Below, one piece after another: positions 5,098 through 48,218 of a DNA stretch of 64,000 nt. The stretch is taken from assembly GCF_030811455.1 (NCBI RefSeq), contig NZ_JAUSQU010000001.1, positions 1-64,000 on the forward strand, given 5' to 3'. Numbering within the stretch: position 1 is the stretch's first letter; each line of letters opens with the position of its first letter. The stretch comes from Streptosporangium lutulentum. Lineage in GTDB: Bacteria; Actinomycetota; Actinomycetes; Streptosporangiales; Streptosporangiaceae. The translations under genes were made by a program, and so were the position numbers. The notes under the pieces are model-generated. The model was not told the origin of the DNA. It worked only from the letters and a program-made list of their open reading frames with translations, and made no database searches.

Positions 5098-5115
5098 GGA
5101 GAGAGCGCTCCCTCC
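5098..5115. promoter_or_regulatory. LacI/CebR-type operator 1
   Basis: Near-perfect palindrome GGAGAGAGCGCTCCCTCC around the GAGCGCTC core (5103-5110). The same core occurs at seven other places in the window, all in front of sugar-utilisation genes. It lies about 280 bp upstream of the second site before the GH16 gene and may be an auxiliary operator. Confidence 0.6.
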
Positions 5116-5344
5116 AAAAGGGTGATGGGGGTGAGTCCTCCTGTCAATTTTCCGCCCGACGGTGATCTTCGCGTTCGGGTCGAAGGGCGGGTGTGGGGAA
5201 GAAAATCCACCCTCATTTGGACTCAAGTAGCCAAAGCTCACGGCATTATGTCGCGTTACAACGTGATCTTCGAGAAACCCTCTCCCGGTCGCACCGTGGC
5301 CGTCCTCTCTCGTGATGCCTGTTTCCGGCATGTTAATTGGGCTC

Positions 5345-5396
5345 TTGACAGGGTCTGTCGGACGAGAGCAATCTCTCGTTGAGAGAGCGCTCCCCG
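5345..5396 (+). promoter_or_regulatory. GH16 promoter with LacI/CebR-type operator 2
   Basis: TTGACA at 5345-5350, an 18-base spacer, CAATCT at 5369-5374 as a plausible -10, then GAGAGAGCGCTCCCC with the core at 5385-5392 at the expected transcription start. A repressor bound there would block initiation. The same order and spacing is seen before both sugar-transport operons (39860 and 48173). Confidence 0.65.
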
Positions 5397-5438
5397 ACTC
5401 GTCATCGATACGGCACCCCCCACTCCCGAGGAGACGCG

Positions 5439-7208
5439 ATGCCCTCGTCCCGAAGTCCCGGACGCCAGCGCCTGGCGCTGTTCGTCGCCGCGGCGGTCAC
5501 CTTGATCACATCCTGCCTGGTGGTGGTGCCCGCGATGGCCGCCGCTCCCGTCCTGCTGTCTCAGGGCAAGCCCGCGACGGCGTCGTCATCGGAGGCGGCG
5601 GTCTTCCCCGCGTCCTCCGCCGTCGACGGCAATCTCGGAACGCGCTGGTCCAGCGCGTTCAGCGATCCCCAGTGGATCCAGGTCGACCTCGGCGCGACCG
5701 CGAGCATCACACAGGTGGTGCTGAACTGGGAGAGCGCACACGGCAGGGCCTTCGAGGTGCAGACCTCCCCGAACGCGAGCACCTGGACCTCGATCTACTC
5801 CACCACGACCGGCACCGGCGGCACGCAGACCCTGAACGTGACCGGCACGGGCCGGTATGTGCGGTTGTACGGCACCCAGCGCTCCAGCCAGTGGGGTTAC
5901 TCGCTGTGGGAGTTCCAGGTCCACGGCACGATCGGCACCACCCCGCCGGATCCCACCCCCACGCCGACCGTGAATCCCCCCGATCCCGGCGGTGACAAGC
6001 TGCTGTCCTACGGCAAGCCCGGTTCGGCCTCGACATCCCAGAACGACCAGAACTGCGGGAACTGCATCCCGGCCAGGGCGTTCGACCGCGACCCCGCCAC
6101 TCGCTGGGCGACGAGCTCCACCACGGGCTGGGTGGATCCGGGCTGGATCTCCGTCGACCTCGGCGCGACCGCGCAGATCAAGAAGGTCGTGCTGCAGTGG
6201 GACCCCGCCTACGCCAGGGCCTTCCAGATCCAGGTCTCACCGGACGGGAACGCCTGGACCCCGATCTACTCCACGACCACCGGCACCGGCTTCAAGCAGA
6301 CCCTGAACGTCACCGGTTCGGGCCGCTACGTGCGCATGTACGGCACGCAGCGGGCCACGCCGTACGGCTACTCGCTGTGGGAGTTCCAGGTCTGGGGCAC
6401 CGGTGGCGCCCCCATAACGCCCCCGCCGCTGCCTCCCGACCCGGCCGTCCCGCCGAGGCTCGTGTGGAGTGACGAGTTCAACGGCGCGTCGGGCACCAAG
6501 CCCGACGCGGCCAAGTGGCGGCCCGAGATCGGGCCCGGCGTCAACAACGAGCTGCAGTACTACACCAACAACGACAACGCCACCATGGACGGTGCCGGCA
6601 GCCTCGTCATGGAGGCGCGCAAGCAGGTCACCGCGGGTTCGGCCTGTCCTCGCGACCCGCTCAGCGGCAGCACCACCTGCCAGTACACCTCGTCGAGGCT
6701 CAACACCTACGGCAAGTTCAGCTTCACCTACGGCAGGGTCGAGGCCCGGATCAAGCCGTCGGGCACCAAGGGCCTCTGGCCCGCCTTCTGGATGCTCGGC
6801 GCCGACTTCTTCGACCAGAACCGGCCCTGGCCCTACGTGGGCGAGATCGACATCATGGAGCACGTCGGCAAGGAACCGCACAACGTGTACTCCACCCTCC
6901 ACGCCCCGGCCTACTTCGGAGGAGGCGGGTTCGGCAAGTCGTACACGATCCCCGGCAACTTCAACGACGCCTTCCACGTGTTCGCCGTGGACTGGAACAG
7001 CAAGGGCATGAGGTTCACCGTCGACGGCAACCTCGTCCACGAGGTCAACCGCGAGACGCTGGAGACCACCGTCGGACCGTGGGTCTTCGACCACCCGTTC
7101 TTCATCATCCTGAACAACGCCGTCGGCGGTGACTGGCCGGGGCCGCCCGACGCCACCACGGTCTTCCCGCAGCGGATGCTCGTCGACTACGTCCGCGTCT
7201 ACCAGTAA
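5439..7208 (+). CDS. Secreted GH16 endo-beta-1,3-glucanase (laminarinase-like) with two F5/8C modules
   Basis: 589 residues from ATG 5439, preceded by GAGGAG five bases upstream. A signal peptide (hydrophobic segment about 11-30, AMAAA cleavage) is followed by two F5/8-type C/CBM32-like modules (about 37-170 and 180-310), separated by Pro/Thr linkers, and a GH16 catalytic domain (about 345-589). The active-site motif GEIDIMEH is intact: Glu469 nucleophile, Asp471 and Glu474 acid/base. The WPAFWMLG and DYVRVYQ ends are typical of laminarinases. It should cut beta-1,3- or mixed-linkage glucan outside the cell. The upstream LacI-type site links it to the GH1/ABC loci at 40-51 kb. Substrate is inferred from family; beta-1,3(1,4)-glucan or another beta-glucan is possible. 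Confidence 0.9.
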   Translation: MPSSRSPGRQRLALFVAAAVTLITSCLVVVPAMAAAPVLLSQGKPATASSSEAAVFPASSAVDGNLGTRWSSAFSDPQWIQVDLGATASITQVVLNWESAHGRAFEVQTSPNASTWTSIYSTTTGTGGTQTLNVTGTGRYVRLYGTQRSSQWGYSLWEFQVHGTIGTTPPDPTPTPTVNPPDPGGDKLLSYGKPGSASTSQNDQNCGNCIPARAFDRDPATRWATSSTTGWVDPGWISVDLGATAQIKKVVLQWDPAYARAFQIQVSPDGNAWTPIYSTTTGTGFKQTLNVTGSGRYVRMYGTQRATPYGYSLWEFQVWGTGGAPITPPPLPPDPAVPPRLVWSDEFNGASGTKPDAAKWRPEIGPGVNNELQYYTNNDNATMDGAGSLVMEARKQVTAGSACPRDPLSGSTTCQYTSSRLNTYGKFSFTYGRVEARIKPSGTKGLWPAFWMLGADFFDQNRPWPYVGEIDIMEHVGKEPHNVYSTLHAPAYFGGGGFGKSYTIPGNFNDAFHVFAVDWNSKGMRFTVDGNLVHEVNRETLETTVGPWVFDHPFFIILNNAVGGDWPGPPDATTVFPQRMLVDYVRVYQ

Positions 7209-7237
7209 CCGCCCAGGAGCGGCAACCGCCCAGGAGG

Positions 7238-7270
7238 GATCCGGCACGGCCGCCGGCCGTGCCGGATCCC
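7238..7270. terminator. Hairpin terminator after GH16 gene
   Basis: Perfect 15-bp inverted repeat GGATCCGGCACGGCC / GGCCGTGCCGGATCC with loop GCC, 30 bases after the GH16 stop. No U-tract, as is common for actinomycete hairpin terminators. Confidence 0.75.
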
Positions 7271-7418
7271 CGCGCCTGCCGCCGGATCCCTTCCCCGCCC
7301 GCGACAGGCCCCGTACCCGATCCTCGTCGTGTCCGCCCGTAGATCCTTCCCCCGCCCGCTCACCCGCGAGTGAGCGGCACGCTCAGAGCCGAGATCGCCT
7401 CCACCCCCCGGAGGGAAG

Positions 7419-10304
7419 ATGCGTTTCCCGCTTTTCCGCTCTCTTGTCATACCGGCGGCCCCCGGACGAAAACGGCCGCTCGTCGTCACACCGTTCGGCG
7501 CCGCGTTCGTGGCGATGCTCCTGGCCTTGGCCGCGATTCTCCACCCGATTCCCGCGTCGGCCGCCCCGCCGGTCGATCCCACCAAGTTCCAGCAGGTCAC
7601 CCTCGCCAAGGGCGTCGCCGAGGTGGGCGAGCCCATGTCGATGGCCGTGCTGCCGGACCGCTCGGTCCTGCACACCGCCCGTGACGGCACGGTCCGGATC
7701 ACCGACGCCGCGGGGAACACCAAGGTGTCGGGCAAGCTCTCCGTCTACTTCAACGACGAGGAGGGCATGCAGGGTGTCGGCGTCGACCCCGGCTTCGCCT
7801 CCAACAGGTTCGTCTACCTCTACTACGCGCCGCCGCTGTCCACGCCGCCGAACAATGCCCCGCTCGACGGCACCGCGGCGGACTTCGCCCGCTTCGACGG
7901 CGTCAACCGGCTGTCGCGCTTCAGGCTGAACACCGACGGCACGCTCGACCTCGCGAGCGAGAAGGCCGTCCTGGACGTGAAGACCAGCCGTGGTTTCTGC
8001 TGCCACGTCGGCGGTGACATCGACTTCGACGCCGCCGGGAACCTCTACCTGACCACCGGCGACGACAGCGAGCCCGGTTTCAACGACGGCTACGCGCCTT
8101 TGGACGACCGCGCCACCCGCAACCCCGCGCTCGACGCGCAGCGAGGCGCCGCCAACACCAACGACCTGCGGGGCAAGGTGCTCCGGATCAAGGTCAACGC
8201 CGACGGCTCCTACTCCATCCCGGCCGGCAACATGTTCCCGCCGGGCACGGCGAACACCCGTCCCGAGATCTACGCGATGGGCTTTCGCAACCCCTTCCGG
8301 ATGAGCGTCGACAAGGCCACCGGAGTGGTCTACCTCGGCGACTACGGTCCCGACGCGGGCACCGCCGGTCCCCGGGGACCGGGCGGTCAGGTCGAGTTCG
8401 ACCGGATCACCGGGCCGGGCTTCTACGGCTGGCCGTACTGCACGGGTAACAACACCCCCGCCGAGACCTACGCCCGCTACAACTACGCCACCGGGGCGAT
8501 CGGCGCGAAGTACGACTGCGCGGGCGGCCCGGAGAACACCTCGCGCAACAACACCGGCCAGGTCAAACTGCCCCCGGCCAAGCCCGCCTGGATCACCTAC
8601 GACGGCTGCAACCTGCCGGAGTTCGGCTGCGGCGCCGAGTCGCCGATGGGCGGTGTCGTCTACCGCTACGACGCCGCGCTGAACTCGCCGATCAAGTTCC
8701 CGCAGGCGCTCGACGGGCACTTCCTCGCGGGCGAGCTGCAGCGCCAGTGGATCAAGGACATCGAGGTCAACGCGGACGGCGGCCGCGGCACCATCCAGCC
8801 CTTCCCCTGGTCGGGCAAGCTGGTGATGGACATGGCCTTCGGCCCGGACGGCGCCCTCTACGTGCTCGACTACGGCACCGGCTGGTTCAACGGCAACCAG
8901 GACTCCGCCCTGTACCGCATCGAGGCCGTCGGAACGGGCGGGCGGGCACCCCTGGCCAAGGCATCGGCGGACCGTGTCTCCGGGAAGGCGCCGCTGACCG
9001 TGGCGTTCTCCTCCGCGGGCAGCTCCGACCCCGACGGCGACGCGCTCACCTACTCGTGGGCGTTCGGCGACGGCGGCACCTCGACCGCGGCCAACCCGAC
9101 GCACGTCTACACCACCGACGGCAGGCGCACGGTCACGCTGACCGTCAGGGACGGCACCGGCCTGACCGCCACGGCCAACGTCGAGATCAACGTCGGCAAC
9201 ACCGCGCCCACCGTGAGCATCCAGCTCCCGCTCAACGGCCAGGTGTTCTCCTTCGGGGACACCGTGCCGTACCGGATCACCGTCACCGACCCCGAGGACA
9301 CCGTGATCGACTGCTCTCGGGTGAAGCTGACCTACATCCTCGGCCACGACACGCACGGCCACCCGCTCGCGACGGCCACCGGCTGCTCGGGCACGATCCA
9401 GACACCCGCCAACGGCGACCACGACGGGGCGGCCAACCTGTTCGGCGTCTGGGACGCCGAGTACACCGACGCAGGCGCCCTCACCACCCACGCCCAGCAC
9501 GTCACCCAGCCGAAGAACCGGCAGGCCGAGCACTACACCACCTCCCAGGGCGTCGTTCAGTACGACAAGCCGACCGCGCACGGAGCCAAGACCGTCGGCA
9601 GCATCGAGAACGGCGACTGGATCGCGTTCGACCCCTACGTTCTCGCCGGCGCCTCAAGGATCACCGCCCGCGTCTCCTCGGGAGGAGTCGGCGGGACCAT
9701 CCAGGTCAGAGCCGGGTCGCCGACCGGGACGCTGCTGGGCACCGCGACGGTGGCGCCCACGGGCGGCTGGGAGACCTTCACCGACGTCGGCGCCACACTG
9801 GCGGGAGCGCCGGCCGGCACCACGAGGCTGTACCTGGTCTTCGCCGGTGGGACGGGCCCGCTGTTCGACGTGGACGACTTCACGCTGACCGTCGGATCCG
9901 GCCCGCCGCCCACGGGCGGTCTGCTGTCGGCAGGCCGGCCGACGGCGGCTTCCTCCACGGAGAACGCGGGATTCCCGTCGTCGGCGGTGGTGGACGGCAA
10001 CGCCGGGACGCGGTGGTCGTCGGGGTTCGCCGACCCGCAGTGGATCTCGGTTGACCTGGGCTCGGTGAAGTCGGTCAACCGGGTCAGGTTGCAGTGGGAG
10101 GCCGCCTACGGCCGGGCCTACCGGATTGAGACCTCCACCGACAACACCACCTGGTCATCGGTCAGTTCCACGACCGCCGGCGACGGCGGCGTGGATGACA
10201 TCACCATCCCCGCGGTGAACGCCCGTTATGTGCGGGTGTACGGCACACAGCGTGCCACACCGTACGGCTACTCCCTATGGGAACTGGAGGTCTACGGTGC
10301 GTAA
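7419..10304 (+). CDS. Secreted glucose/sorbosone dehydrogenase-like protein with PKD, CBM6 and F5/8C modules
   Basis: 961 residues from ATG 7419, with GGAGGG just upstream. Order: signal peptide (to about 48, PASAAPP); six-bladed beta-propeller of the PQQ-dependent glucose/sorbosone dehydrogenase family (about 60-505; GNLYLTTGDDSEPGF, YAMGFRNPFRMSV, MDMAFGPDGALYVLDYG); PKD domain (about 510-595, SSDPDGDALTYSWAFGDGG); an Ig-like segment; a CBM6-like module (about 700-830); and a C-terminal F5/8C module. It probably oxidises or binds an extracellular sugar; PQQ dependence is family-based and not proven. The stop overlaps the start of the ThuA gene by eight bases, so the two are translationally linked. 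Fused GSDH-ThuA-PKD-CBM6 proteins are known in other bacteria, and this pair looks like a split version. Confidence 0.82.
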   Translation: MRFPLFRSLVIPAAPGRKRPLVVTPFGAAFVAMLLALAAILHPIPASAAPPVDPTKFQQVTLAKGVAEVGEPMSMAVLPDRSVLHTARDGTVRITDAAGNTKVSGKLSVYFNDEEGMQGVGVDPGFASNRFVYLYYAPPLSTPPNNAPLDGTAADFARFDGVNRLSRFRLNTDGTLDLASEKAVLDVKTSRGFCCHVGGDIDFDAAGNLYLTTGDDSEPGFNDGYAPLDDRATRNPALDAQRGAANTNDLRGKVLRIKVNADGSYSIPAGNMFPPGTANTRPEIYAMGFRNPFRMSVDKATGVVYLGDYGPDAGTAGPRGPGGQVEFDRITGPGFYGWPYCTGNNTPAETYARYNYATGAIGAKYDCAGGPENTSRNNTGQVKLPPAKPAWITYDGCNLPEFGCGAESPMGGVVYRYDAALNSPIKFPQALDGHFLAGELQRQWIKDIEVNADGGRGTIQPFPWSGKLVMDMAFGPDGALYVLDYGTGWFNGNQDSALYRIEAVGTGGRAPLAKASADRVSGKAPLTVAFSSAGSSDPDGDALTYSWAFGDGGTSTAANPTHVYTTDGRRTVTLTVRDGTGLTATANVEINVGNTAPTVSIQLPLNGQVFSFGDTVPYRITVTDPEDTVIDCSRVKLTYILGHDTHGHPLATATGCSGTIQTPANGDHDGAANLFGVWDAEYTDAGALTTHAQHVTQPKNRQAEHYTTSQGVVQYDKPTAHGAKTVGSIENGDWIAFDPYVLAGASRITARVSSGGVGGTIQVRAGSPTGTLLGTATVAPTGGWETFTDVGATLAGAPAGTTRLYLVFAGGTGPLFDVDDFTLTVGSGPPPTGGLLSAGRPTAASSTENAGFPSSAVVDGNAGTRWSSGFADPQWISVDLGSVKSVNRVRLQWEAAYGRAYRIETSTDNTTWSSVSSTTAGDGGVDDITIPAVNARYVRVYGTQRATPYGYSLWELEVYGA
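9933..10301 (+). repeat. F5/8C module DNA repeat, copy 1
   Basis: This 369-bp segment encoding the last module of the GSDH-like protein is nearly identical to 11515-11883 at a fixed offset of 1582 bp. I find three differences (ATT/ATC, GAA/GAG, GAG/CAG). Such identity, even at silent sites, points to recent duplication or gene conversion. Confidence 0.9.
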
Positions 10305-11886
10305 GCTCATCGTCTTCTTCGCCGCCTTGATCGCGGTCGTGATCGGGTTCGGAATGCCCGTCACGGCCATGGCCGCCGATCCGGCCTACAAGGTGCTCGT
10401 CTTCTCCAAGACCGCCGGATTCCGGCACGACGCCATTCCCGCGGGCATCACCGCGCTGCGGGAGCTGGGGACGGCGAACAACTTCACCGTCGACGCCACC
10501 GAGGACGCCGCCGCCTTCACCACGGCCAACCTGGCCGGATACAGAGCGGTGATCTTCCTGATGACCACCGGGGACGTGCTCAACCCCACCCAGCAGACGG
10601 CGCTCGAATCCTACATGGCGAGCGGCGGCGGCTACGTCGGCGTCCACGCGGCCGCCGACACCGAGTACGACTGGGCGTACTACGGCGGCCTCGTCGGCGC
10701 CTACTTCGCCTCCCACCCCGCCATCCAGCAGGCCACCATCCGGGTCGAGGACACCGCGCACCCCTCGACGGCCCACCTGCCCGCCGCCTGGGTGCGCACC
10801 GACGAGCTGTACAACTACCGCACGAACCCCCGCTCCACGGCTCACGTGCTGGCCACGCTCGACGAGTCGACCTACTCCGGCGGATCGATGGGAGCCGACC
10901 ACCCGATCGCCTGGTGCAAGCCGTACCGGGGCGGCCGGACCTGGTACACCGGGCTCGGTCACACCGCCGCGTCCTACACCGAGCCGAACTTCCGGGCGCA
11001 CCTGCTCGGCGGGGTCCGCTACGCGGCCGGGGTCGCCGCCGCCGACTGCGGGACGGGCACGCCGCCGCCGGCCACCGGCGCGGTGGAAGCGGAGAGCTTC
11101 TCCTCCCAGTCCGGCGTCCAGGTGGTCGACAAGGCCGCCGCGCACGGCGGCAGGGCGGTCGGCTACGTCGACAACGGCGACTGGCTGGGATTCTCGGCCG
11201 TGGACTCGGCCGGGGTGACGGGTTTCTCCGCGCGAGTCGCCTCGGCGGGCGCGGGCGGCACGATCGAGGTGCGGGCGGGTTCGGCGACGGGCACCCTGCT
11301 GGGCTCGGTGGCGGTGTCTCCGACCGGCGGCTGGGAGACCTTCCAGACGGTCACGACCACGCTGACGGGCACGGGCACCGGTCCGCTGCACCTGAGGTTC
11401 ACCGGGGGAGCGGGCTCGCTGTTCGACATCGACGACTTCACCCTCACCCGGGGATCCACGCCCACCCCCACCCCCACTCCCACGCCGCCGACGAGTGGCG
11501 CGTTGTTGTCGGGGGGCCGGCCGACGGCGGCTTCCTCCACGGAGAACGCGGGATTCCCGTCGTCGGCGGTGGTGGACGGCAACGCCGGGACGCGGTGGTC
11601 GTCGGGGTTCGCCGACCCGCAGTGGATCTCGGTTGACCTGGGCTCGGTGAAGTCGGTCAACCGGGTCAGGTTGCAGTGGGAGGCCGCCTACGGCCGGGCC
11701 TACCGGATCGAGACCTCCACCGACAACACCACCTGGTCATCGGTCAGTTCCACGACCGCCGGCGACGGCGGCGTGGATGACATCACCATCCCCGCGGTGA
11801 ACGCCCGTTATGTGCGGGTGTACGGCACACAGCGTGCCACACCGTACGGCTACTCCCTATGGGAGCTGCAGGTCTACGGTGCGTAG
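10297..11886 (+). CDS. Secreted ThuA-domain protein with CBM6 and F5/8C modules
   Basis: 529 residues from GTG 10297 (VRKLIVFFAALIAVV), chosen because GGAGG lies six bases upstream and a signal peptide follows; the longer upstream frame is the shadow of the preceding gene's end. Residues about 30-265 form a ThuA (trehalose-utilisation type, glutamine-amidotransferase-like) domain: KVLVFSKTAGFRHDAIPAG, GGGYVGVHAAADTEYDW and GRTWYTGLGHTAASYTEPNF. Next come a CBM6-like module (about 275-390), a PTPTPTP linker and an F5/8C module nearly identical to the one ending the previous protein. Secreted ThuA proteins have no firmly established reaction; ThuA is linked to keto-sugar metabolism. It overlaps the GSDH-like gene by eight bases, so a joint function on one glycan is likely. 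Confidence 0.82.
   Translation: MRKLIVFFAALIAVVIGFGMPVTAMAADPAYKVLVFSKTAGFRHDAIPAGITALRELGTANNFTVDATEDAAAFTTANLAGYRAVIFLMTTGDVLNPTQQTALESYMASGGGYVGVHAAADTEYDWAYYGGLVGAYFASHPAIQQATIRVEDTAHPSTAHLPAAWVRTDELYNYRTNPRSTAHVLATLDESTYSGGSMGADHPIAWCKPYRGGRTWYTGLGHTAASYTEPNFRAHLLGGVRYAAGVAAADCGTGTPPPATGAVEAESFSSQSGVQVVDKAAAHGGRAVGYVDNGDWLGFSAVDSAGVTGFSARVASAGAGGTIEVRAGSATGTLLGSVAVSPTGGWETFQTVTTTLTGTGTGPLHLRFTGGAGSLFDIDDFTLTRGSTPTPTPTPTPPTSGALLSGGRPTAASSTENAGFPSSAVVDGNAGTRWSSGFADPQWISVDLGSVKSVNRVRLQWEAAYGRAYRIETSTDNTTWSSVSSTTAGDGGVDDITIPAVNARYVRVYGTQRATPYGYSLWELQVYGA
11515..11883 (+). repeat. F5/8C module DNA repeat, copy 2
   Basis: Second copy of the 369-bp module at 9933-10301, with three base differences by eye. 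The encoded modules differ at one residue (Glu to Gln near the end). Confidence 0.9.
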
Positions 11887-11971
11887 CCGCCACGGCGGTC
11901 GCCCGGGTTCGCAGGTCACGAGACATCGCTTTTCGGCTGTATCAACCGCATGACCGGAGGAGCCAGAACCC

Positions 11972-13282
<1,311 letters not shown>

Positions 13283-39608: not shown

Positions 39609-39620
39609 GGAGAGACGTAG

Positions 39621-39634
39621 GGGAGCGCTCTCTG
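39621..39634. promoter_or_regulatory. LacI/CebR-type operator 3
   Basis: GGGAGCGCTCTCT, core at 39623-39630, directly after the SDR stop. One of four sites in 300 bases upstream of the first sugar operon. Confidence 0.5.
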
Positions 39635-39729: not shown

Positions 39730-39743
39730 TGGGAGCGCTCCAT
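39730..39743. promoter_or_regulatory. LacI/CebR-type operator 4
   Basis: TGGGAGCGCTCCAT, very close to the published CebR box of Streptomyces (TGGGAGCGCTCCCA). Confidence 0.6.
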
Positions 39744-39859: not shown

Positions 39860-39906
39860 TTGACACGTAACCCGGATGCCATCAATCTGCTCAGGGAGCG
39901 CTCTCT
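39860..39906 (+). promoter_or_regulatory. Promoter and operator 6 of sugar operon A
   Basis: TTGACA (39860-39865), 17-base spacer, CAATCT (39883-39888), then GGGAGCGCTCTC (core 39896-39903) at the expected start site. Same architecture as the GH16 promoter. Confidence 0.7.
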
Positions 39907-39940: not shown

Positions 39941-41239
39941 ATGCGTAAGTTACGCCACCGGTTCCTCGTCCCGATGGTCGCCGTTTCCGCCTTGGCCCTG
40001 GGTCTCACCGCCTGTGGCAGCGGCGGTGACGCCCCCGCGAGCGGCGGGGCGGCCTCCCAGCCGGCAGAGAAGATCAAGCTGACCGTCGGGCTCTTCAGCG
40101 ACTTCCACTACGCGCCGCTGTACGAGGAGTTCAAGAAGACCCATCCCAACGTGGAGATCGTGGAGCGCCGTGCGCAGTTCAACGACCACCACACCAACCT
40201 CATCACGCAGCTGACCACCGGCGCGGGGGCCGCGGACGTGGTCGCCATCGAGGGCGGCTACATCGCCGCGTTCACGCCCGTGCCCGACAAGTTCTACAAC
40301 CTCAAGGACTACGGACTGGACAAGCGCGAGAGCGAATACCTCGACTGGAAGTGGAAGCTGGGCGTCTCCAACGACGGCTCCTCGCTCATCGGTCTCGGCA
40401 CCGACGTCGGCGGCCTGGCCATGTGCTACCGCCCCGACCTGTTCGGGAAGGCCGGCCTGCCCACCAACCGTGACGAGGTCTCGGCGCTCTGGCCGACGTG
40501 GGACGCCTACATCGAGACGGGCAAGAAGTTCGTCGCGGCCAAGGTCGAGGGCGCCAAGTTCACCGACGGCCCCGGTGAGCACTTCCGCGCCATGGTCGAG
40601 CAGGCCCCGGTCGGGTTCTACGACGCCCAGTACAACATCGTCGCCGCCACCAACCCCGAGGTGCGCAAGGCGTTCGACATGGGCGTGAAGATGATCAGCG
40701 ACGGTCTCTCGGCCAACCTCGCCGCCTTCTCGCCGCCGTGGAACACCGGAATCGCCAAGGGTACCTTCGCCACCATGGTCTGCCCGGCCTGGAAGACCGG
40801 CACGATCAAGGACCAGAAGCCCGGTGAGGGCACCTGGGACATCGCCGCGGTGCCCGGCGGCGGCGGCAACCAGGGCGGCACCCACCTGGCGCTGCCCAAG
40901 CAGGGCAAGCACCCCAAGGAGGCCGCCGAGCTGATCAACCTGCTGACCAGCAAGGAGAGCCAGGTCACGCTCTTCACGGAGGCCAGCGCGCTGCCCTCGC
41001 TGCCCGCCCTGTACGACGACCCCGCGGTGAAGGACTACGTCAACCCGTACTTCGGCAACGCGCCGATCGGCAAGATCTTCACCGACGCCGCCAAGGCGCT
41101 CAAGCCGCAGCCCGTCGGTCCCAAGGCCGGCGACGTCCTGCAGGCGATCGGCAACGGTCTCCAGCGGGTCGACCAGGGCAAGCAGAACGCGGAGGAAGCC
41201 TGGGCGCAGGCGCTCAAGGACGTCAGCAGGATCAAGTAG
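39941..41239 (+). CDS. Sugar ABC transporter substrate-binding lipoprotein (operon A)
   Basis: 432 residues from ATG 39941, with AGGAGGG just upstream. Lipobox LGLTACGSG. The family-1 solute-binding fold is visible from IKLTVGLFSDFHYAPLYEEF, GAGAADVVAIEGGYIAAF, the GLGTDVGGLAMCYRPDLF region, CPAWKTGTIKDQ and EAAELINLLTSKESQ. CebE-like and related cellobiose/oligosaccharide binders have this layout. It should deliver a beta-linked oligosaccharide to the two permeases that follow; the beta-glucosidase in the same operon supports this. The exact sugar is inferred. Confidence 0.9.
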   Translation: MRKLRHRFLVPMVAVSALALGLTACGSGGDAPASGGAASQPAEKIKLTVGLFSDFHYAPLYEEFKKTHPNVEIVERRAQFNDHHTNLITQLTTGAGAADVVAIEGGYIAAFTPVPDKFYNLKDYGLDKRESEYLDWKWKLGVSNDGSSLIGLGTDVGGLAMCYRPDLFGKAGLPTNRDEVSALWPTWDAYIETGKKFVAAKVEGAKFTDGPGEHFRAMVEQAPVGFYDAQYNIVAATNPEVRKAFDMGVKMISDGLSANLAAFSPPWNTGIAKGTFATMVCPAWKTGTIKDQKPGEGTWDIAAVPGGGGNQGGTHLALPKQGKHPKEAAELINLLTSKESQVTLFTEASALPSLPALYDDPAVKDYVNPYFGNAPIGKIFTDAAKALKPQPVGPKAGDVLQAIGNGLQRVDQGKQNAEEAWAQALKDVSRIK

Positions 41240-41315
41240 TCGCCCCTCGGCCGGCTGGTCTCGCACCGGTCGGCCACCGGCTTGCCGTCCCGGCGAGCCG
41301 CGCGCCCGTCCGCCT

Positions 41316-41412: not shown

Positions 41413-41428
41413 ACCGAAAGGAGCTGCC

Positions 41429-42397
41429 ATGGCGACTCGGGCACCCGAACGCCTGGCGGCGGTTCCGCCGAACAGGCCGGTGCGACATCGCCGCCTCCGC
41501 CGCCACCTGGTCCACCAGCTCGACGTCAAGGGCTCGCCGTACGCCTACGTGGCCCCGTTCTTCCTGCTCTTCTCCGCCTTCGGGCTGTTCCCCCTGGCCT
41601 ACACCGCCTGGGTGAGCCTGCACGAGTGGACGCTGCTCCGGGACGAGCAGACCTTCATCGGCCTGGAGAACTTCAGGACCCTGCTCGCCGACGACTACTT
41701 CTGGAACGCCACCTTCAACACCCTGTCCATCGGGGTGCTGTCCACCGCCCCGCAGTTGCTGCTGGCCATCTGGCTGGCCCACCTGCTCAACCGGCCGCTG
41801 CGGGCGCAGACCTTCTTCCGCGTCACGCTGCTGCTGCCCAACGTGACCAGTGTGGTCGCGGTGGTGGTCATCTTCAGTCAGCTGTTCGGCCGGGACTTCG
41901 GCATGATCAACTGGGTGATGTCGCTGTTCGGGGTCGAGGGCGTCGCCTGGAACGAGGGGGTGCTGAGCTCCCACGCCGCCATCTCCACCATGATCATGTG
42001 GCGGTGGACGGGATACAACGCCCTGATCTTCCTGGCGGCCATGCAGGCCGTGCCGCGCGAGCTGTACGAGGCGGCCACCATCGACGGCGCGAGCGGGTTC
42101 ACCCAGCTCCGTAAGATCACCATTCCGATGATCAGGCCCACGATCGTCTTCGTCGTCATCACCTCGACGATCGGCGCCATGCAGATCCTCGCGGAGCCGC
42201 TGCTGTTCGGCTCCTACCTCATCACCGGCGGGGTGGACCGGCAGTACCAGACGCTCTCGCTGTTCATCTACGAGAACTTCACCAAGCTCGACTTCGGCTA
42301 CGCCTCGGCCATCTCCTGGATGATGTTCGTCTTCATCGTCCTGGTCGCCGGCGTCAACTACCTGATCACCCGTCGTGGGAAGGGAGGGCTGACGTGA
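41429..42397 (+). CDS. Sugar ABC transporter permease, MalF/CebF type (operon A)
   Basis: 322 residues from ATG 41429, AAAGGAG upstream. Six membrane segments (first YAYVAPFFLLFSAFGLFPLA) and the EAA loop ELYEAATIDGASGFTQLRKI, which contacts the ATPase. The C-terminus ends with a positive tail, RRGKGGLT. Pairs with the following permease, whose GTG overlaps this stop (GTGA). Imports the ligand of the preceding lipoprotein. Confidence 0.93.
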   Translation: MATRAPERLAAVPPNRPVRHRRLRRHLVHQLDVKGSPYAYVAPFFLLFSAFGLFPLAYTAWVSLHEWTLLRDEQTFIGLENFRTLLADDYFWNATFNTLSIGVLSTAPQLLLAIWLAHLLNRPLRAQTFFRVTLLLPNVTSVVAVVVIFSQLFGRDFGMINWVMSLFGVEGVAWNEGVLSSHAAISTMIMWRWTGYNALIFLAAMQAVPRELYEAATIDGASGFTQLRKITIPMIRPTIVFVVITSTIGAMQILAEPLLFGSYLITGGVDRQYQTLSLFIYENFTKLDFGYASAISWMMFVFIVLVAGVNYLITRRGKGGLT

Positions 42398-43281
42398 GCG
42401 CCCCCGCCGCCCCGAGGTCCTCCAAACGCCCGCGTCCCGCCCTCAACGGCTCCACGGCCCGGCGCTCCGAGCTCGCCCGCAGGCTCACCTACCTCACGCT
42501 GACCGCGGTGGCGTTCTTCTCGATGCTGCCGCTCTACTACAGCATCGTGGTGGCCTCCCGCGACAACGCGGCACTGGCGGACGTCCCGCCGCCGCTGGTG
42601 CCCGGCGGCAACTTCTTCGCCAACGTCGCCCGCGTCTTCGACACGGTCCCGTTCGCCATGGCGATGGTCAACTCCGTCCTGGTCTCCGGCTCCGTCGCGA
42701 TCGCGGTGATGTTCTTCTCGACGCTGGCCGGGTTCGCCTTCGCCAAGCTGCGCTTCCGCGGTCGCAACGCCCTGCTCCTGCTCACCGTCGCGACCATGAT
42801 GGTGCCGACCCAGCTCGGCATCATCCCGCTCTACATGCTGATGGTGAAGCTGGAGTGGACCGGCAGCATGTACGCGCTGATCGTGCCCGCGCTCGTCAAC
42901 GCGTTCGGCGTGTTCTTCATGACCCAGTACCTCTCCCGGGCGCTGCCGACCGAGTTGCTGGAGGCCGGCCGGGTCGACGGCTGCACCACCTGGGGTCTGT
43001 TCTGGCACGTCGTGCTCCCGGCCGCCCGCCCGGCGGCGGCCGTGCTCGGCATGCTCACCTTCATGTCGGTCTGGAACGACTACTTCTGGCCACTGGTCGT
43101 CCTGACCCCGGAGGACCCGACGGTGCAGGTCGCCCTGTCCACCCTGGCCAGCGGATACGTCAACGACTACGTACTGGGCCTGGCGGGCACCACCCTCGGC
43201 ACCCTGCCGCTGGTCCTGGTGTTCGCTCTTCTCGGCAAACAGATCATCGGAGGAATCATGCAAGGAGCTGTAAAGGGATGA
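42394..43281 (+). CDS. Sugar ABC transporter permease, MalG/CebG type (operon A)
   Basis: 295 residues from GTG 42394, overlapping the upstream stop by four bases. Membrane segments begin with LTYLTLTAVAFFSMLPLYY; the EAA loop reads ELLEAGRVDGCTTWGLFWHV and the C-terminus KQIIGGIMQGAVKG is standard for MalG-like proteins. Forms the heterodimeric channel with the CebF-like partner. No ATPase gene follows, so a shared MsiK-type ATPase encoded elsewhere is probably used. Confidence 0.93.
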   Translation: MSAPAAPRSSKRPRPALNGSTARRSELARRLTYLTLTAVAFFSMLPLYYSIVVASRDNAALADVPPPLVPGGNFFANVARVFDTVPFAMAMVNSVLVSGSVAIAVMFFSTLAGFAFAKLRFRGRNALLLLTVATMMVPTQLGIIPLYMLMVKLEWTGSMYALIVPALVNAFGVFFMTQYLSRALPTELLEAGRVDGCTTWGLFWHVVLPAARPAAAVLGMLTFMSVWNDYFWPLVVLTPEDPTVQVALSTLASGYVNDYVLGLAGTTLGTLPLVLVFALLGKQIIGGIMQGAVKG

Positions 43282-44705
43282 CCGTCGTCAGCACACGGGG
43301 GGCCACCCTTACGCAGGGGCGTGCGGACTTCCCCGTCGGTTTCGTCTGGGGCGCCGCCACCGCCTCCTACCAGATCGAGGGCGCGGCCCATGAGGACGGC
43401 CGCGGGCCCTCGATCTGGGACACCTTCTCCGGCACGCCGGGCAAGGTCATCGGGGGAGACACCGGTGACGTGGCCTGTGACCACTACTTCCGCTATGCCG
43501 ACGACGTCCGGCTGATGAGCGACCTGGACCTGGCGGCCTACCGGTTCTCCGTCGCCTGGCCCAGGATCCAGCCGGACGGCACCGGTCCGGCCAACACCCG
43601 CGGCCTGGACTTCTACAGCCGCCTGGTCGACAGGCTGCTGGAAGCGGGGATAACGCCCTACGTCACCCTCTACCACTGGGACCTGCCCCAGGCACTGGAG
43701 GACGCGGGCGGCTGGCCCGAGCGCGACACCGCCTACCGGTTCGCCGACTACGCGCGAATCGTGCACGCGCGCCTGGGAGACCGCGTCCAGCACTGGACCA
43801 CGCTCAACGAACCGTGGGTGGCGGCCTTTCTCGGCTACGGCAACGGGGTGCACGCGCCGGGCAGGAGGGAGCCCGCGGCGGCCTTCCGCGCGGCCCACCA
43901 TCTGCTGCTGGGGCACGGGCTGGCGGCGCGGGCGATACGCGAGGCGGGGGCCGAGGAGATCGGACTGGCCCTCAACCTCTCACCGGTGATCACTCCCGCG
44001 CAGGTGGGCGACCCCGCGGCCGTCCCGTCGCTCCAGGACGCCGAGGCGGTCGGCCGGATCGACACGCTGCTCACCCGGCACTTCCTCGACCCCGCGCTGC
44101 GCGGGGAGTATCCCGTGGAACTGCTCGCGATGATCGAGCGCAACGGAGGTCTGGCCCACATCCGGGACGGTGATCTGGAGATCATCAATCAGCCGATCGA
44201 CGTGATCGGCATCAACTACTACAACCCGTGCGTGGTCGAGTCGGGGCCGGGCCAGGCCGCCGACGCGGCGTGGCCCGGCAGCGAGGACATCCGGTTCTGC
44301 CCGGTCGACGACGTGCCGGCCACCGCGATGGGCTGGCCGATCGTGCCGAACGGGCTCTCCCGCCTGCTGGTACGGCTGGCCGACGACTACCCGGAGGTCG
44401 GCCTGGTCATCACCGAGAACGGCGCGGCCTTCGAGGACGTCGTGGAGGGCGACCGCGTCCACGACACCGGCAGGACCGGCTACCTGGACGGCCATCTGCG
44501 CGCCGTGCACGCCGCGATCGCCGACGGGGCGGACGTCCGGGGATATCTGGTCTGGTCCTTGCTGGATAATTTCGAGTGGGCCTACGGCTACGGGCGTAGA
44601 TTCGGGATCGTGCACGTCGACTTCGACACCCAGCGGCGTCTCTTCAAGGACAGCGCGCTGTGGTACCGCGAGGTCATCAAGCAGAACGGACTGCGGGGGA
44701 ACTGA
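43278..44705 (+). CDS. GH1 beta-glucosidase (operon A)
   Basis: 475 residues from ATG 43278, which overlaps the permease stop (ATGA); the longer frame from 42855 is a shadow. GH1 signature [15 protein letters not shown] near the N-terminus, acid/base Glu178 in TLNEP and nucleophile Glu380 in [24 protein letters not shown] near the C-terminus holds the aglycone/glucose contacts. No signal peptide: it hydrolyses imported beta-glucosides inside the cell. Its position directly after the permeases and before a LacI gene mirrors cebEFG-bglC of Streptomyces, but the operator set also covers a laminarinase, so laminari-oligosaccharides are a plausible substrate. Confidence 0.94.
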   Translation: MTVVSTRGATLTQGRADFPVGFVWGAATASYQIEGAAHEDGRGPSIWDTFSGTPGKVIGGDTGDVACDHYFRYADDVRLMSDLDLAAYRFSVAWPRIQPDGTGPANTRGLDFYSRLVDRLLEAGITPYVTLYHWDLPQALEDAGGWPERDTAYRFADYARIVHARLGDRVQHWTTLNEPWVAAFLGYGNGVHAPGRREPAAAFRAAHHLLLGHGLAARAIREAGAEEIGLALNLSPVITPAQVGDPAAVPSLQDAEAVGRIDTLLTRHFLDPALRGEYPVELLAMIERNGGLAHIRDGDLEIINQPIDVIGINYYNPCVVESGPGQAADAAWPGSEDIRFCPVDDVPATAMGWPIVPNGLSRLLVRLADDYPEVGLVITENGAAFEDVVEGDRVHDTGRTGYLDGHLRAVHAAIADGADVRGYLVWSLLDNFEWAYGYGRRFGIVHVDFDTQRRLFKDSALWYREVIKQNGLRGN

Positions 44706-45701
44706 ATGAGACGCCCTACCTTGGAGGCGGTCGCGGCCCGGGCCGGGGTCTCCCGCTCGACCGTCTCCAGGGTCGTGAACGGCCAGACCACGGTCACCTC
44801 GGACATCCGTGACCTGGTCATGCGCGCCGTGAACGAACTGGGCTACGTCCCCAACGGCGCCGCCAGGAATCTCGCCACCCAGCGCACCAACTCCGTCGCG
44901 CTGGTCGTCTCCGAGTCCCCGCACCGGGTGTTCTCCGACGATCCGATGTTCTCCACGGTCATCCGCTCGGCCAGCATCGAGCTGGAGGCCGTCAACAAGC
45001 AGGTCGTGCTGCTGCTGGCCGGATCGCCGGAGAGCCACGCCCGCGTGGAGAACTACGTCGCGGGCGGCCACGTGGACGGTGTCATGCTCGTGTCGAGCCA
45101 CGGCGCCGACCCCCTGCCCGTCGCGCTGACCCGGCTGCGCGTCCCGGTCATCTCCTACGGCAGGCCCGCGGTGCCGGTGACCATGCCGTACGTCGACACC
45201 GACCACGTCAACGGCGCCGCCACGGCCGTGCGCCATCTGCTGGAGCGGGGGAGGCGGCGGATCGCCACGATCTCCGGGCCGCTGGACATGATCGGCGGCC
45301 AGGACCGCCTGGCCGGATACCGCGAGGTGCTCCACGACTCCGACCGCCGCTCGATCATCGCGGTCGGCGACTTCACCCGCGAGTCCGGCGCGGTCGCGAT
45401 GCGGCAGCTGCTCGCCGACGACCCCGAGATCGACGCGGTGTTCGCCGCCAACGACCTGATGGCGATCGGCGCCATGCACGCGCTCCGCCAGGCGGGCCGC
45501 CGGATCCCGGACGACATCGCCGTCGTCGGCTACGACGACATAGAGGCCGCCCGCTACACCGACCCGCCGCTGACCACCATTCACAACCCGCACCAGGAGC
45601 AGGCCGCGGCCATGGTCCGGCTGCTGCTCGGCCTCCTGGACGGCGAGCAGGTCGAACCGGTGATCATGCCCACGGAGCTTGTCGTCAGGACGTCCTCGTA
45701 G
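44706..45701 (+). CDS. LacI-family transcriptional regulator A
   Basis: 331 residues, ATG 44706 directly after the GH1 stop. N-terminal helix-turn-helix [20 protein letters not shown] with hinge LGYVPNGAARNLATQR; periplasmic-binding-protein-like effector domain to the end (AVFAANDLMAIGAMHAL; DIAVVGYDDIEAARYTDPPL). It should repress its own operon by binding the GAGCGCTC palindromes until a sugar releases it. Most residues match regulator B by eye, including the DNA-reading helix region, so both may recognise the same sites. Its last 17 bases overlap regulator B's gene tail to tail. Confidence 0.94.
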   Translation: MRRPTLEAVAARAGVSRSTVSRVVNGQTTVTSDIRDLVMRAVNELGYVPNGAARNLATQRTNSVALVVSESPHRVFSDDPMFSTVIRSASIELEAVNKQVVLLLAGSPESHARVENYVAGGHVDGVMLVSSHGADPLPVALTRLRVPVISYGRPAVPVTMPYVDTDHVNGAATAVRHLLERGRRRIATISGPLDMIGGQDRLAGYREVLHDSDRRSIIAVGDFTRESGAVAMRQLLADDPEIDAVFAANDLMAIGAMHALRQAGRRIPDDIAVVGYDDIEAARYTDPPLTTIHNPHQEQAAAMVRLLLGLLDGEQVEPVIMPTELVVRTSS

Positions 45702-46683
45702 ACTCCCGCACCACCAGCTCGGTGGGGAGGACGAGCTGTGCCTGCTCCTCCAGGCCCAGCACCATGCGCGCGAGCCGCCGGCCCATCTCGACGGTCGACT
45801 GCCTGACCGTGGTCAGGGGCGGTTCGGCGTAGGCCGCGGCCGGGATGTCGTCGAAGCCGACGACGGCCACGTCGTCCGGAACCCGGCGCCCCGTACCCCG
45901 CAGGGTCCGCAGCGCTCCCAGCGCCATCAGGTCGTTGGCCACGAACACCGCGTCGATCTCGGGGTCGTCGGCGAGCAACTGCCGCATCGCGATCACCCCG
46001 GACTCGCGGGTGAAGTCGCCGACCGCGATGATCGAGCGGCGGTCGGAGTCGCGCAGGGTGTCGCGGTAGCCGTTGAGCCGGTCGATCCCGGCGATCATGT
46101 CCTGCGGTCCGGCGATGGTCGCGATCCGGCGGCGTCCCTGCTCCATCAGATGCGCGACGGCGCGCTCGGCGCCCCCCGAGTTGTCCATGTCCACGTACGG
46201 GAGGTTGCTGGGCGTGCCCGGGCGGCCGCTGCAGACCACCGGGACGCCGCGCCGGGTCAGGATCGCCGGCAGCGGATCGGCGCCGTGCATCGACGCGATG
46301 ATCACGCCGTCCACGTGCCCGTTGGTGGCGTAGCGCTCGACCCGCTGGTAGCCGCCCTCCGCTCCGGTGAGCATCAGCACGAGCTGCTTGTCGGCCTGTT
46401 CGATCTCCATGCTGACCCCTCGGATGATCCCGGCGAAGGTCGGGTCGTCGGAGAAGACGCGGGTCGCGGGCTCGGGGAAGACCAGGGCGATCGAGTCGGC
46501 CCGCTGGGTGACCAGGCTGCGCGCCGCCTGGTTGGGGACGTAGCCCAGTTCTTCCACGGCGCGATTCACCGCCTCGCGGATCTGCGGGGCCACGCGGGTC
46601 GAGCCGTTGATCACGCGGGAGGCGGTCGCCCGGGACACTCCTGCCCGGGCGGCCACTTTCTCCAGGGTCGGACGGGCCCTCAC
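45685..46683 (-). CDS. LacI-family transcriptional regulator B
   Basis: 332 residues from GTG 46683, overlapping the stop of the GH1 gene as GTGA; the frame up to 46800 is a shadow. Helix-turn-helix [20 protein letters not shown], hinge [16 protein letters not shown] and effector domain ([36 protein letters not shown]). Clear paralogue of regulator A. It is cotranscribed with the GH1 gene at 46680, under the operator at 48092, so it likely autoregulates. Confidence 0.94.
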
Positions 46684-48059
46684 AGCCCGTTCCGGCGGAC
46701 GACCTCGCGGAACCACAGGGCGCTGTCCTTGGGAGTGCGGCGCTGGGTGCTGTAGTCGACATGTACGACACCGAACCGTTTGCGATACCCTTCCGCCCAC
46801 TCGAAGTTGTCCAGCAGCGACCAGACCAGATAACCGCGCAGATCGACGCCCGCCTCGATGGCGGCGTGCGCGGCGCGCAGGTGCCCGTCCAGGTAGGACA
46901 GGCGGCCGACGTCGTGCACCTGGCCGTCCTCAACGACGTCGTCGAAGGCCGCGCCGTTCTCGGTGATGATCAGTGGGGTGTCCGGATAGTCGTGCGACAG
47001 CCGCAGAAGCAGCTCGGTCAGCCCGAACGGCTGCACCGGCCAGCCCATCGCGGTCTTCGGCGCGTCGGCGCCGGGAAAGGCGATTCCCTCGCTGCCCGGG
47101 TAGACCGGGTTGGCGGGCTCGCCGACGCGGCCGGTCACGGTCTGCGGGTTGTAGTAGTTCACGCCCAGCAGGTCGATCGGCCGGCTGATGATCTTCAGGT
47201 CGCCGTCCTCGACGAAGGACCAGTCGGTGAAGCGGCGGGCCCGCTCCACCACGTCGGCGGGATACTCGCCGCGGAGCACCGGGTCCAGGAAGATCCGGTT
47301 CTGCAGGCCGTCCACGACGGACGCCGCCTCGGCGTCGTCGCCGAGCACGGGGGCGAGATTGAGCGTGATGCCGATCCGGCTCGCGCCCGCGGCGCGCAGC
47401 GCCTGGACGGCCAGGCCGTGGCCGAGCAGCAGGTGGTGGGCGGCGGCGAAGCTCAGCCCGGGTTCGGTACGGCCCGGCGCGTGGATGCCCGAGGCGTAGC
47501 CGAGGAAGGCCGAGCACCAGGGCTCGTTCAGCGTGGTCCACGTCTCGACCCGGTCGCCCAGGCGGGAGTACATGATCGCGGCGTACTCGGCGAACCGCTC
47601 GGCGGTCTCCCGGTTGGTCCAGCCGCCCCGGTCCTCCAGGGTCTGCGGCAGGTCCCAGTGGTAGAGCGTCACGATCGGGGTGATGCCCCCGCCGTGCAGC
47701 TCGTCCACCAGGCGGTCGTAGAAGTCCAGACCGCGAGGGTTGGCCGGGCCCGAGCCGTCCGGCTGGATGCGGGGCCAGGAGACGGAGAACCGGTAGGCGT
47801 GCAGACCCAGGTCGCCCATGAGGCGGACATCGTCGGGGTAGCGGTGGTAGTGGTCGCAGGCGACGTCACCGGTGTGACCGGCATGCACCTTGCCGGGGGT
47901 CCGGGAGAAGGTGTCCCAGATCGAGGGTCCCCTGCCGTCCTCCCGGGCCGCGCCCTCGATCTGGTAGGCCGCGGTGGCGGCGCCCCAGACGAAGCCCTCG
48001 GGAAACCTCAGCACGCCGGAGTCCTGAAGGTCGTAGGACTTTTCGGCGGACATGGTCAT
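46680..48059 (-). CDS. GH1 beta-glucosidase (locus B)
   Basis: 459 residues from ATG 48059 (GAGG just upstream; ATG 48053 is an alternative; the longer frame to 48116 covers the operator and is rejected). [15 protein letters not shown], acid/base Glu179 in TLNEP, nucleophile Glu367 in IITENG and [18 protein letters not shown] are conserved. Cytoplasmic. It is a paralogue of the operon A enzyme and forms with regulator B an inverted copy of the GH1-LacI pair. It is divergent from the binding-protein gene at 48251, with operators before both. Confidence 0.94.
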
Positions 48060-48091
48060 GTCCTCACCGCCCCATTCTGTTTCGCAGTCGT

Positions 48092-48138
48092 GTGAGAGCG
48101 CTCTCACGAGCATCACGTTAGCTTAGGGAGTGTGTCAA
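48092..48138 (-). promoter_or_regulatory. Promoter and operator 7 of GH1-LacI unit B
   Basis: On the minus strand TTGACA (48138-48133) is followed about 25 bases on by the perfect 16-bp palindrome GTGAGAGCGCTCTCAC (48107-48092), which would cover the -10/+1 region. Confidence 0.7.
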
Positions 48139-48172
48139 GAAAAATGGGCCTGTAACCGTAATATCACAGTTA

Positions 48173-48218
48173 TTGACATCGTGTTGTGTGCGGACAATTC
48201 TTCCAGAGAGCGCTCTCA
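48173..48218 (+). promoter_or_regulatory. Promoter and operator 8 of sugar operon B
   Basis: TTGACA (48173-48178), 16-base spacer, CAATTC (48195-48200), then AGAGAGCGCTCTCA with core GAGCGCTC (48208-48215). Same layout as at 5345 and 39860. The divergent unit's operator is about 100 bases away, so looping between them is possible. Confidence 0.7.

Follow-up and report, generated by a model that had tools for sequence, protein, structure and literature searches.

Variant CelR/CebR-type operators and paired LacI repressors in Streptosporangium lutulentum: a probable beta-1,3-glucan regulon beside a cellulose regulon

Eight copies of the palindrome GAGCGCTC lie ahead of sugar genes in the first 64,000 nucleotides of contig NZ_JAUSQU010000001.1 of Streptosporangium lutulentum (hereafter the window), which raises the question of which repressors and which sugar these sites serve. 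The genes concerned encode a secreted GH16 glucanase and two uptake operons. Operon A comprises genes for a substrate-binding protein (SBP-A), two permeases, a GH1 enzyme (GH1-A) and the repressor LacI-A. A second repressor gene, LacI-B, and a second GH1 gene, GH1-B, lie on the opposite strand and converge on operon A, while GH1-B is divergent from operon B, which encodes SBP-B and two permeases (Table 1). Both repressors are members of the LacI family, with an N-terminal helix-turn-helix (HTH) and a periplasmic-binding-protein-like sensor. A preliminary description of this DNA had proposed a single LacI regulon with CebR-type operators, serving beta-1,3-glucan rather than plain cellobiose. 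We conclude that the window probably contains the central part of a regulon for beta-1,3-glucan use, repressed by LacI-A and LacI-B via GAGAGCGCTCTC-type sites, and that the genome also has a separate CelR-type cellulose regulon.

Operators and promoters of the window

All eight palindromes were recovered by pattern search, at 5103, 5385, 39623, 39733, 39805, 39896, 48096 and 48208; seven positions agree exactly with the preliminary description, and one differs by one base (given there as 39734). Its statement that they always precede sugar genes also held: all eight lie in non-coding DNA upstream of such genes, given likely starts chosen from the sequence (GH16 5439, SBP-A 39941, GH1-B ~48059, SBP-B 48251). 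The crude gene caller (coding fraction 0.82) placed 48096 and 48208 inside over-extended starts of open reading frames (ORFs). At a window GC content of 69 %, 3.82 copies of the GAGCGCTC 8-mer would be expected and 8 were observed, a number that one of 100 shuffled sequences also attained. Since the 8-mer alone is compatible with chance, we put the weight on a longer 12-mer, on position and on conservation.

Three of the sites follow a promoter. The TTGACA hexamers at 5345, 39860 and 48173, their spacers of 18, 17 and 16 bases and the elements CAATCT, CAATCT and CAATTC were as previously described, whereas 7, 4 and 4 bases, not uniformly 5-6, separate the CAATCT/CAATTC elements from the 14-bp palindrome. 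TTGACA is conserved in 8/8 GH16, 12/12 operon A and 12/14 operon B promoter rows; the operator is kept too, and the spacer drifts. LacI-A and LacI-B would bind GAGAGCGCTCTC-type palindromes just past the -10 element and thereby block RNA polymerase.

According to the main passages of PMC3377646 and PMC4898821, CelR of Thermobifida fusca and CebR of Streptomyces are LacI-family regulators with the operator TGGGAGCGCTCCCA. The window resembles these systems in having a LacI gene within an SBP-permease-permease-GH1 operon (operon A), GAGCGCTC at the operator centre and a distant secreted glycoside hydrolase as target. It differs in its operators, whose halves carry A at +/-5 (GAGAGCGCTCTC) or are mixed, in its recognition helices (SRST and SRAT, not GRGT), in its targets, which are beta-1,3-glucanases and not cellulases, and in that a CelR-type regulon coexists in the genome. 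The best window site is two mismatches from the CebR/CelR 14-mer: only 39730 (TGGGAGCGCTCCAT) comes near it, and 48093 also has two mismatches but is of the other class. The earlier assignment to CebR does not hold: the window operators are distinct from the CebR site, and a regulator of CelR type is encoded in an operon of its own near 1.34 Mb.

Table 1. Coordinates of operators, promoters and genes in the window, with the evidence for each (operators carry no strand).
Feature	Position	Strand	Evidence
GH16 operator 1, AGAGAGCGCTCCCT, mixed half-sites	5100..5113		Pattern search; identical place at one orthologous locus (L181), nearby at others
GH16 promoter, TTGACA-18-CAATCT	5345..5374	+	TTGACA in 8/8 orthologous promoters
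GH16 operator 2, AGAGAGCGCTCCCC, 7 bases past -10	5382..5395		Pattern search, promoter alignment
Secreted CBM32-CBM32-GH16 endo-beta-1,3-glucanase (predicted activity)	5439..7208	+	Pfam F5_F8_type_C x2, Glyco_hydro_16
Operon A operator 1, GGGGAGCGCTCTCT	39620..39633		Counterparts in relatives
Operon A operator 2, TGGGAGCGCTCCAT	39730..39743		Pattern search; printed for Sros_7173 in a passage of PMC3377646
Operon A operator 3, GGAGAGCGCTCTCC	39802..39815		Matches LacI-C locus sites; printed for Sros_7173 in a passage of PMC3377646
Operon A promoter, TTGACA-17-CAATCT	39860..39888	+	Promoter alignment
Operon A operator 4, AGGGAGCGCTCTCT, 4 bases past -10	39893..39906		Promoter alignment
SBP-A, CebE-like substrate-binding lipoprotein	39941..41239	+	PDB 5ixp 320 bits, 8bfy (CebE, Streptomyces scabiei) 305 bits
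Operon A permease 1, MalF/UgpA-like	41429..42397	+	Domain matches
Operon A permease 2, MalG/UgpE-like	42394..43281	+	Domain matches
GH1-A beta-glucosidase, start approximate	43281..44705	+	Pfam Glyco_hydro_1, E 1.3e-160
LacI-A repressor, recognition helix VSRSTVSR	44706..45701	+	PF00356 + PF13377/PF00532
LacI-B repressor, recognition helix VSRATASR	45685..46683	-	PF00356 + PF13377/PF00532
GH1-B beta-glucosidase, start approximate	46680..48059	-	TIGR03356, 622 bits (cut-off 478.5)
GH1-B/LacI-B operator, TGAGAGCGCTCTCA	48093..48106		Pattern search, promoter alignment
Operon B promoter, TTGACA-16-CAATTC	48173..48200	+	Promoter alignment
Operon B operator, AGAGAGCGCTCTCA, 4 bases past -10	48205..48218		Promoter alignment
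SBP-B, substrate-binding protein	48251..49609	+	Distant similarity to NgcE-type/xylo-oligosaccharide binders
Operon B permease 1	49642..50667	+	Domain match
Operon B permease 2	50702..51673	+	Pfam

Two operator classes in the genome and in relatives

The operators fall into two classes that differ at +/-5 (G versus A) and at +/-7. Class I has T at +/-7 and G at +/-5 (TGGGAGCGCTCCCA, the CelR/CebR type), and class II is of the GAGAGCGCTCTC type, with A at +/-5. In the 10.64-Mb genome, the 12-mer GRGAGCGCTCYC occurs at 35 places, compared with 10 for its reversed control, and by our own reading 29 of the 35 stand at glycan or LacI genes. The 8-mer alone is common, and the 10-mer RGAGCGCTCY occurs at only 88 places versus 69 for its control. 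Twenty stretches were taken for gene calling, which was crude, and 16 of them carry the 28 twelve-mers outside the window (L and G numbers below denote our loci and genomes).

Class I sites, exact or near TGGGAGCGCTCCCA, lie upstream of cellulase genes of families GH6 (L008, L011), GH48 (L020) and GH9 (L021), ahead of a second SBP-permease-GH1-LacI operon (L013, ~1.34 Mb; two exact TGGGAGCGCTCCCA) and ahead of a LacI gene (L020, 5196). GH55 and GH81 are beta-1,3-glucan families. Class II sites lie upstream of a GH55 gene (L010; PDB 4pew, E 1e-193), a GH16-CBM6 gene (L019) and a GH81 gene (L022), at a cluster of GH3, LacI, CBM32-DUF1996 and CBM32-GH16-GH158 genes (L017), at an SBP-permease-permease-GH1 operon (L015; one of four sites is within the first SBP codons) and ahead of a lone LacI gene (L016). 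Some sites at L011, L015, L016 and L020 fall inside called ORFs with over-extended starts. No GH5, GH6, GH9 or GH48 gene was among the class II targets examined in this genome, and the operator is shared by secreted beta-1,3-glucanases of the types GH16, GH55, GH81 and GH16-GH158. The window GH16 itself has 2hyk, a beta-1,3-glucanase, as its best PDB match (E 1.6e-66); beta-1,3-glucanases and laminarinases lead its matches of known structure, and lichenase-type entries score far below these. The case for beta-1,3-glucan, which had leaned on this one enzyme, is thereby strengthened by the GH55, GH81, GH16-CBM6, CBM32-GH16-GH158 and GH3 targets, by the CelR palindrome at the cellulases and by relatives in which operon A is joined to a CBM32-GH16 gene (see below).

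The same division was found in a conservation sample of 41 genomes (that of the window and 40 relatives). Class II sites precede 12/12 GH81 orthologues of the genus, and class II or mixed sites precede 8/8 full-length GH16 orthologues, five of which also hold GGGAGCGCTCCC with non-CelR flanks. GH48 loci, in contrast, carry class I in 16/17 cases and class II in 0/17 (Fisher test of GH81 plus GH16 versus GH48, 6e-11, with relatedness ignored). Class II lies upstream at 9/22 GH55 loci (one site 1.1 kb off, one before an apparently truncated gene) and class I at 0/22. The single GH81 of another genus carries TGGGAGCGCTCCCA, and the only LacI match of its genome at the cut-off is CelR-type. Two genomes in which a CelR-type protein is the sole LacI match have class I or near-class I sites at a GH81 (L179, site 1325) and at a GH16 gene (L188, site 1103), hinting at the ancestral state.

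The two classes meet at celR. About 105 bp before this gene, in the last codons of the GH1 gene of the cellulose operon, lies a class II site (L013 ~6223, G000 C1 1339721; orthologues at L110-L129). It is present at 13/14 Streptosporangium loci (one mixed) and at 0/9 loci of other genera. Its codons AGA GTT ... GCT are rare elsewhere in these genes (GCT 4/519 Ala, AGA 1/307 Arg and GTT 4/308 Val in 10 genes), which points to selection on the DNA; one genome retains the amino acids without the site.

Repressor groups and competing explanations

In the window genome, eight LacI genes match LacI-A at E 1e-60, itself included; LacI-A and LacI-B are neighbouring genes that converge, and their products share 63 % identity. 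We fetched 81 LacI regions and tallied recognition helices against neighbouring sites for 131 LacI genes with flanking DNA (two duplicate loci were dropped; 13 LacI-B rows have no separate site count). The 23 GRGT genes adjoin 39 class I and 12 class II sites, one mixed site and one with other flanks, and the 12 class II sites are those just upstream of celR. At the 73 SRST (18) and SRAT (55) genes no site is class I; 108 are class II, 22 are mixed and 20 have other flanks. The 16 SKST/SKSS genes also lack class I sites and have a single class II site beside 11 mixed ones and 12 with other flanks, SPAT genes (11) have 11 class I sites, five SRGT and SSAT genes have none, and three genes with single helices have 4 class II and 3 mixed sites. 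Helix and operator thus correspond by position. A LacI with helix SRAT at L282 was not used as a reference.

In a tree built without the HTH columns, the GRGT genes form one clade (98) that excludes LacI-A and LacI-B, and LacI-A falls in another starred set of 66 rows. The tree was made by a quick method with long branches flagged, and reference proteins from T. fusca and S. griseus are absent from it; the label "CelR-type" rests on the operon, the operator and the match to the description of Sros_3304-3308. A further paralogue group, LacI-C, is encoded near 3.30 and 3.89 Mb. A LacI paralogue near 3.908 Mb (64 %) was set aside; it has no site of the pattern, and its neighbours look by eye like a sugar phosphotransferase system (PTS) permease and transposases. 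The one-LacI view of the preliminary description needs correcting, since related operators are common to LacI-A, LacI-B and one or more additional groups of paralogues.

The proposed scheme is as follows. The secreted GH16 of the window, together with GH55, GH81, GH16-CBM6 and GH16-GH158 enzymes encoded elsewhere in the genome, would cut beta-1,3-glucan. Operons A and B would take up the resulting oligosaccharides, GH1-A and GH1-B would split them inside the cell, and a laminari-oligosaccharide, the presumed inducer, would free the repressors. LacI-C proteins probably act at operator 39802, and the separate CelR-type regulon with its TGGGAGCGCTCCCA operator would serve cellulose.

Several observations weigh against this scheme. 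Six of the 35 twelve-mers stand at no recognised glycan gene (L007, L009, L012, L014, L018 and L022 at 13569): those at L007, L012, L014 and L018 lie inside called coding sequence and were excluded from the targets, and at the class I sites of L009 (337113) and L022 (9703067) the nearest called gene has no glycan Pfam domain. In this genome no site is near the second GH55 gene or near either of two weak GH16 genes, and 13/22 GH55 loci of the conservation sample have none upstream. The 22 sites before GH16 orthologues comprise 13 mixed, 5 GGGAGCGCTCCC with other flanks and only 4 pure class II. No site was found within range of 12/55 SRAT, 6/18 SRST and 3/7 SKST genes, and the SPAT group adjoins class I sites as well, so that the helix-operator mapping is not one to one. 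Finally, SBP-A is closer to CebE (305 bits) than is the SBP of the CelR operon (252 bits), and it may therefore still take up cello-oligosaccharides.

Two side observations concern the class I sites just mentioned. The site at L022 13569 (G000 C1 9703067) lies upstream of a small HATPase_c_2 protein, and histidine-kinase-ATPase-like genes under CelR sites are reported in a passage of PMC3377646. The SPAT LacI has a TGGGAGCGCTCCCA-type site 54 bp upstream of its own gene in 11/11 regions (L153-L163), and in the window genome the next gene resembles, by eye, a Ser/Thr kinase, as that paper's main text notes for S. roseum.

The residues of SBP-A bear on its ligand. Compared by a hand-read alignment with the CebE-cellotriose contacts, taken from a passage of PMC10714786, SBP-A keeps F70, E125, T172, D173, F282, W303 and G333, which include the contacts for the non-reducing glucose (all but F282). 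It is changed at W331->Q, Q281->A, Y307->T, Q235->R, S334->T, S370->A, Q417->G, Q420->L and D425->G, with gaps at CebE T424 and T72-A73, while the SBP of the CelR operon keeps W331, S334 and F282. This pattern fits a site in which the non-reducing-end glucose is kept and the linkage environment may be altered; a table in PMC10714786 indicates that CebE of S. reticuli also deviates at several of these contacts.

The similarity of SBP-A to CebE, its nearest ligand-defined homologue, is also the chief argument for a single cellobiose or cello-oligosaccharide regulon with CelR/CebR-type operators, in which GH16 would be accessory and operon A a cellobiose transporter. The two mismatches between 39730 and the CelR site agree with it, as does a passage of PMC3377646 that counts Sros_7169-7173 among putative cellobiose transporter operons. 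We nevertheless consider this very unlikely, and a plain CebR regulon was rejected, because the same genome has, elsewhere, a CelR-type operon that carries two exact TGGGAGCGCTCCCA sites and whose repressor has another helix. Moreover, the cellulase genes carry TGGGAGCGCTCCCA, class II is found at none of the 17 GH48 loci, and LacI-A falls outside the GRGT clade. A broad beta-glucan regulon, induced by mixed-linkage beta-1,3-1,4-glucan, gentiobiose or aryl-beta-glucosides, is unlikely too, if less so. It would accommodate the promiscuity of GH1 and GH3 enzymes (BglC of S. scabiei, in a passage of PMC9426481, degrades laminaribiose efficiently besides cellobiose) and an SBP-B that is only distantly similar to known binders. 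The target families and the low lichenase-type scores of GH16 speak against it.

The strongest competitor divides the sites into two or three sub-regulons with look-alike operators, with LacI-A serving GH16 and operon A, LacI-B serving operon B, and LacI-C serving GH3, the L015 operon and operator 39802. The outer flanks of the half-sites do differ: LacI-C loci have G..A in 64/68, LacI-A and LacI-B loci have A..A in 42 and T..A in 34 of 126, and CelR loci have T..G in 78/106. In addition, GGAGAGCGCTCTCC before operon A tracks the presence of LacI-C (6/6 genomes with it, 0/2 without, among eight Streptosporangium genomes with operon A in the fetched region, which are few and related). Of two other genera with operon A, G018 lacks both LacI-C and GGAGAGCGCTCTCC, and G023, with LacI-C, has one matching half only. 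Yet the adjacent and similar LacI-A and LacI-B have overlapping site types, and the GH81 sites are of the A/B type although this gene is linked to neither repressor. Such a division is a real possibility, somewhat short of even, and it could be compatible with the beta-1,3-glucan regulon proposed here.

Gene neighbourhoods, earlier reports and implications

We scanned 84,980 named species genomes for related loci and examined 52 of the best 80 of at least 560 loci (the other 28 were at ~49-53 % identity); 8 of the 52 lack a site of the pattern. Among the loci examined, operon A with its LacI gene is divergent from a CBM32-GH16 gene in four Planotetraspora (with DUF1996 beyond) and in Sphaerisporangium perillae, and adjoins GH81 in Thermocatellispora and Actinomadura WMMA1423; in Sphaerisporangium TRM90804 both GH55 and CBM32-GH16 are close to it. 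A. kijaniata and A. latina have comparable operons next to a GH16-CBM6-type gene, although their SBPs share only 43-44 % identity with the queries. Paralogues of LacI-A (SKSS, SKST, SRSS or SRAS) are divergent from CBM32-GH16 at five Streptomyces loci, in Nonomuraea soli, Actinomadura alba and Thermocatellispora, and likewise in three Streptosporangium relatives. Others, such as six Nonomuraea and Microtetraspora loci, have operon A with no such enzyme within 8 kb. A third operator type was seen at Streptomyces loci (L257-L261, L263, L265), where an SKSS LacI gene lies beside CBM32-GH16 or DUF1996 with AGGGAGCGCTCCCT-type sites; L260, within this series, is from Thermocatellispora and has mixed sites.

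These neighbourhoods bear on the distance between GH16 and operon A in the window. Collinearity with L102, from the closest of the 40 relatives by LacI-A identity (G011), ends at 4359 and resumes at 4977, and this break coincides with a LacI gene of L102 that is transcribed away from GH16; window positions 4288-4976 hold an ORF of the TetR-type C-terminal kind. We read this as replacement of the local LacI in the window lineage, so that GH16 and operon A, 35 kb apart, look like a rearranged unit with operators retained. A LacI pseudogene beside the window GH16 was considered and rejected, since tblastn at E 0.1 matched only LacI-A and LacI-B. Across the genus, operon B is retained more consistently than operon A: G010, G012, G013 and G015 have LacI-A, the operon B SBP and GH81 with class II sites and no SBP-A in the region, so that operon B may be the main importer.

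Further genes flank GH16. Positions 1528-4248 (- strand) encode a collagen-like protein of 906 residues that contains extended Gly-X-Y repeats (Pfam Collagen, E 1.7e-98). Downstream of GH16, 7419-13282 (+ strand) encode three proteins that combine CBM6/CBM32 modules with GSDH, ThuA and DUF1996 domains; in other genera, too, DUF1996 is a neighbour of GH16.

Parts of this system have been seen before. In its main passages, PMC3377646 (2012) printed TGGGAGCGCTCCAT and GGAGAGCGCTCTCC ahead of Sros_7173 of Streptosporangium roseum, letter for letter the sites at 39730 and 39802. The same passages note Sros_3721-3725 and Tbis_0842, call the transporters putative cellobiose transporters with palindromes near few further genes, and put the Caci_5330 palindrome ahead of a pair of GH16 genes, which "may be endo-1,3-beta-glucanases". 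They contain, supplements aside, no Streptosporangium GH55, GH81 or GH16 targets, LacI groups or helix-operator link. Full-text search found GAGAGCGCTCTC only in that paper and in one on sugarcane leaf scald. The main text of the comparative LacI regulon study PMC4052901 has neither "CebR" nor "laminari". Among the papers listed on laminarin, laminaribiose, GH55, GH81, LacI, CebR and Streptomyces, none reports such a regulon, judged by title and the opening of the abstract, subscription papers and supplements being outside this scope. Two operon A operators of S. roseum and the cellobiose-type label were already known, and the beta-1,3-glucan regulon as such was not found in the literature searched. 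A LacI-family repressor tied to secreted beta-glucanases, with laminaribiose as its inducer, is reportedly found in GlyR3. This protein, from Clostridium thermocellum (LacI family according to a passage of PMC5483248), belongs to a different phylum and is likened to the window repressors by description, not by sequence.

A beta-1,3-glucan regulon with a variant CelR/CebR operator is well supported by this evidence, with repressor binding and the inducer proposed from sequence. Its origin can be stated only tentatively, at slightly under even probability: in Streptosporangiaceae and kin, an ancestral CelR-like beta-glucan regulon may have been split into a cellulose and a beta-1,3-glucan regulon by LacI paralogues whose helix and operator positions +/-5 and +/-7 changed together, with the class II site placing celR, too, under the beta-1,3-glucan repressor. 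The division of a regulon once its repressor has been duplicated is as a rule reconstructed from distantly related organisms, and here several LacI groups share one cell. Because these coexisting groups have operators one or two positions apart per half-site and dozens of genomes serve as natural replicates, their specificity residues are directly testable. If the proposed regulon is correct, the CebE-like "putative cellobiose" importers in Streptosporangium would be re-annotated as probable laminari-oligosaccharide importers, and the system would be a candidate means for these soil actinobacteria to detect beta-1,3-glucan such as that of fungal walls, callose or laminarin.

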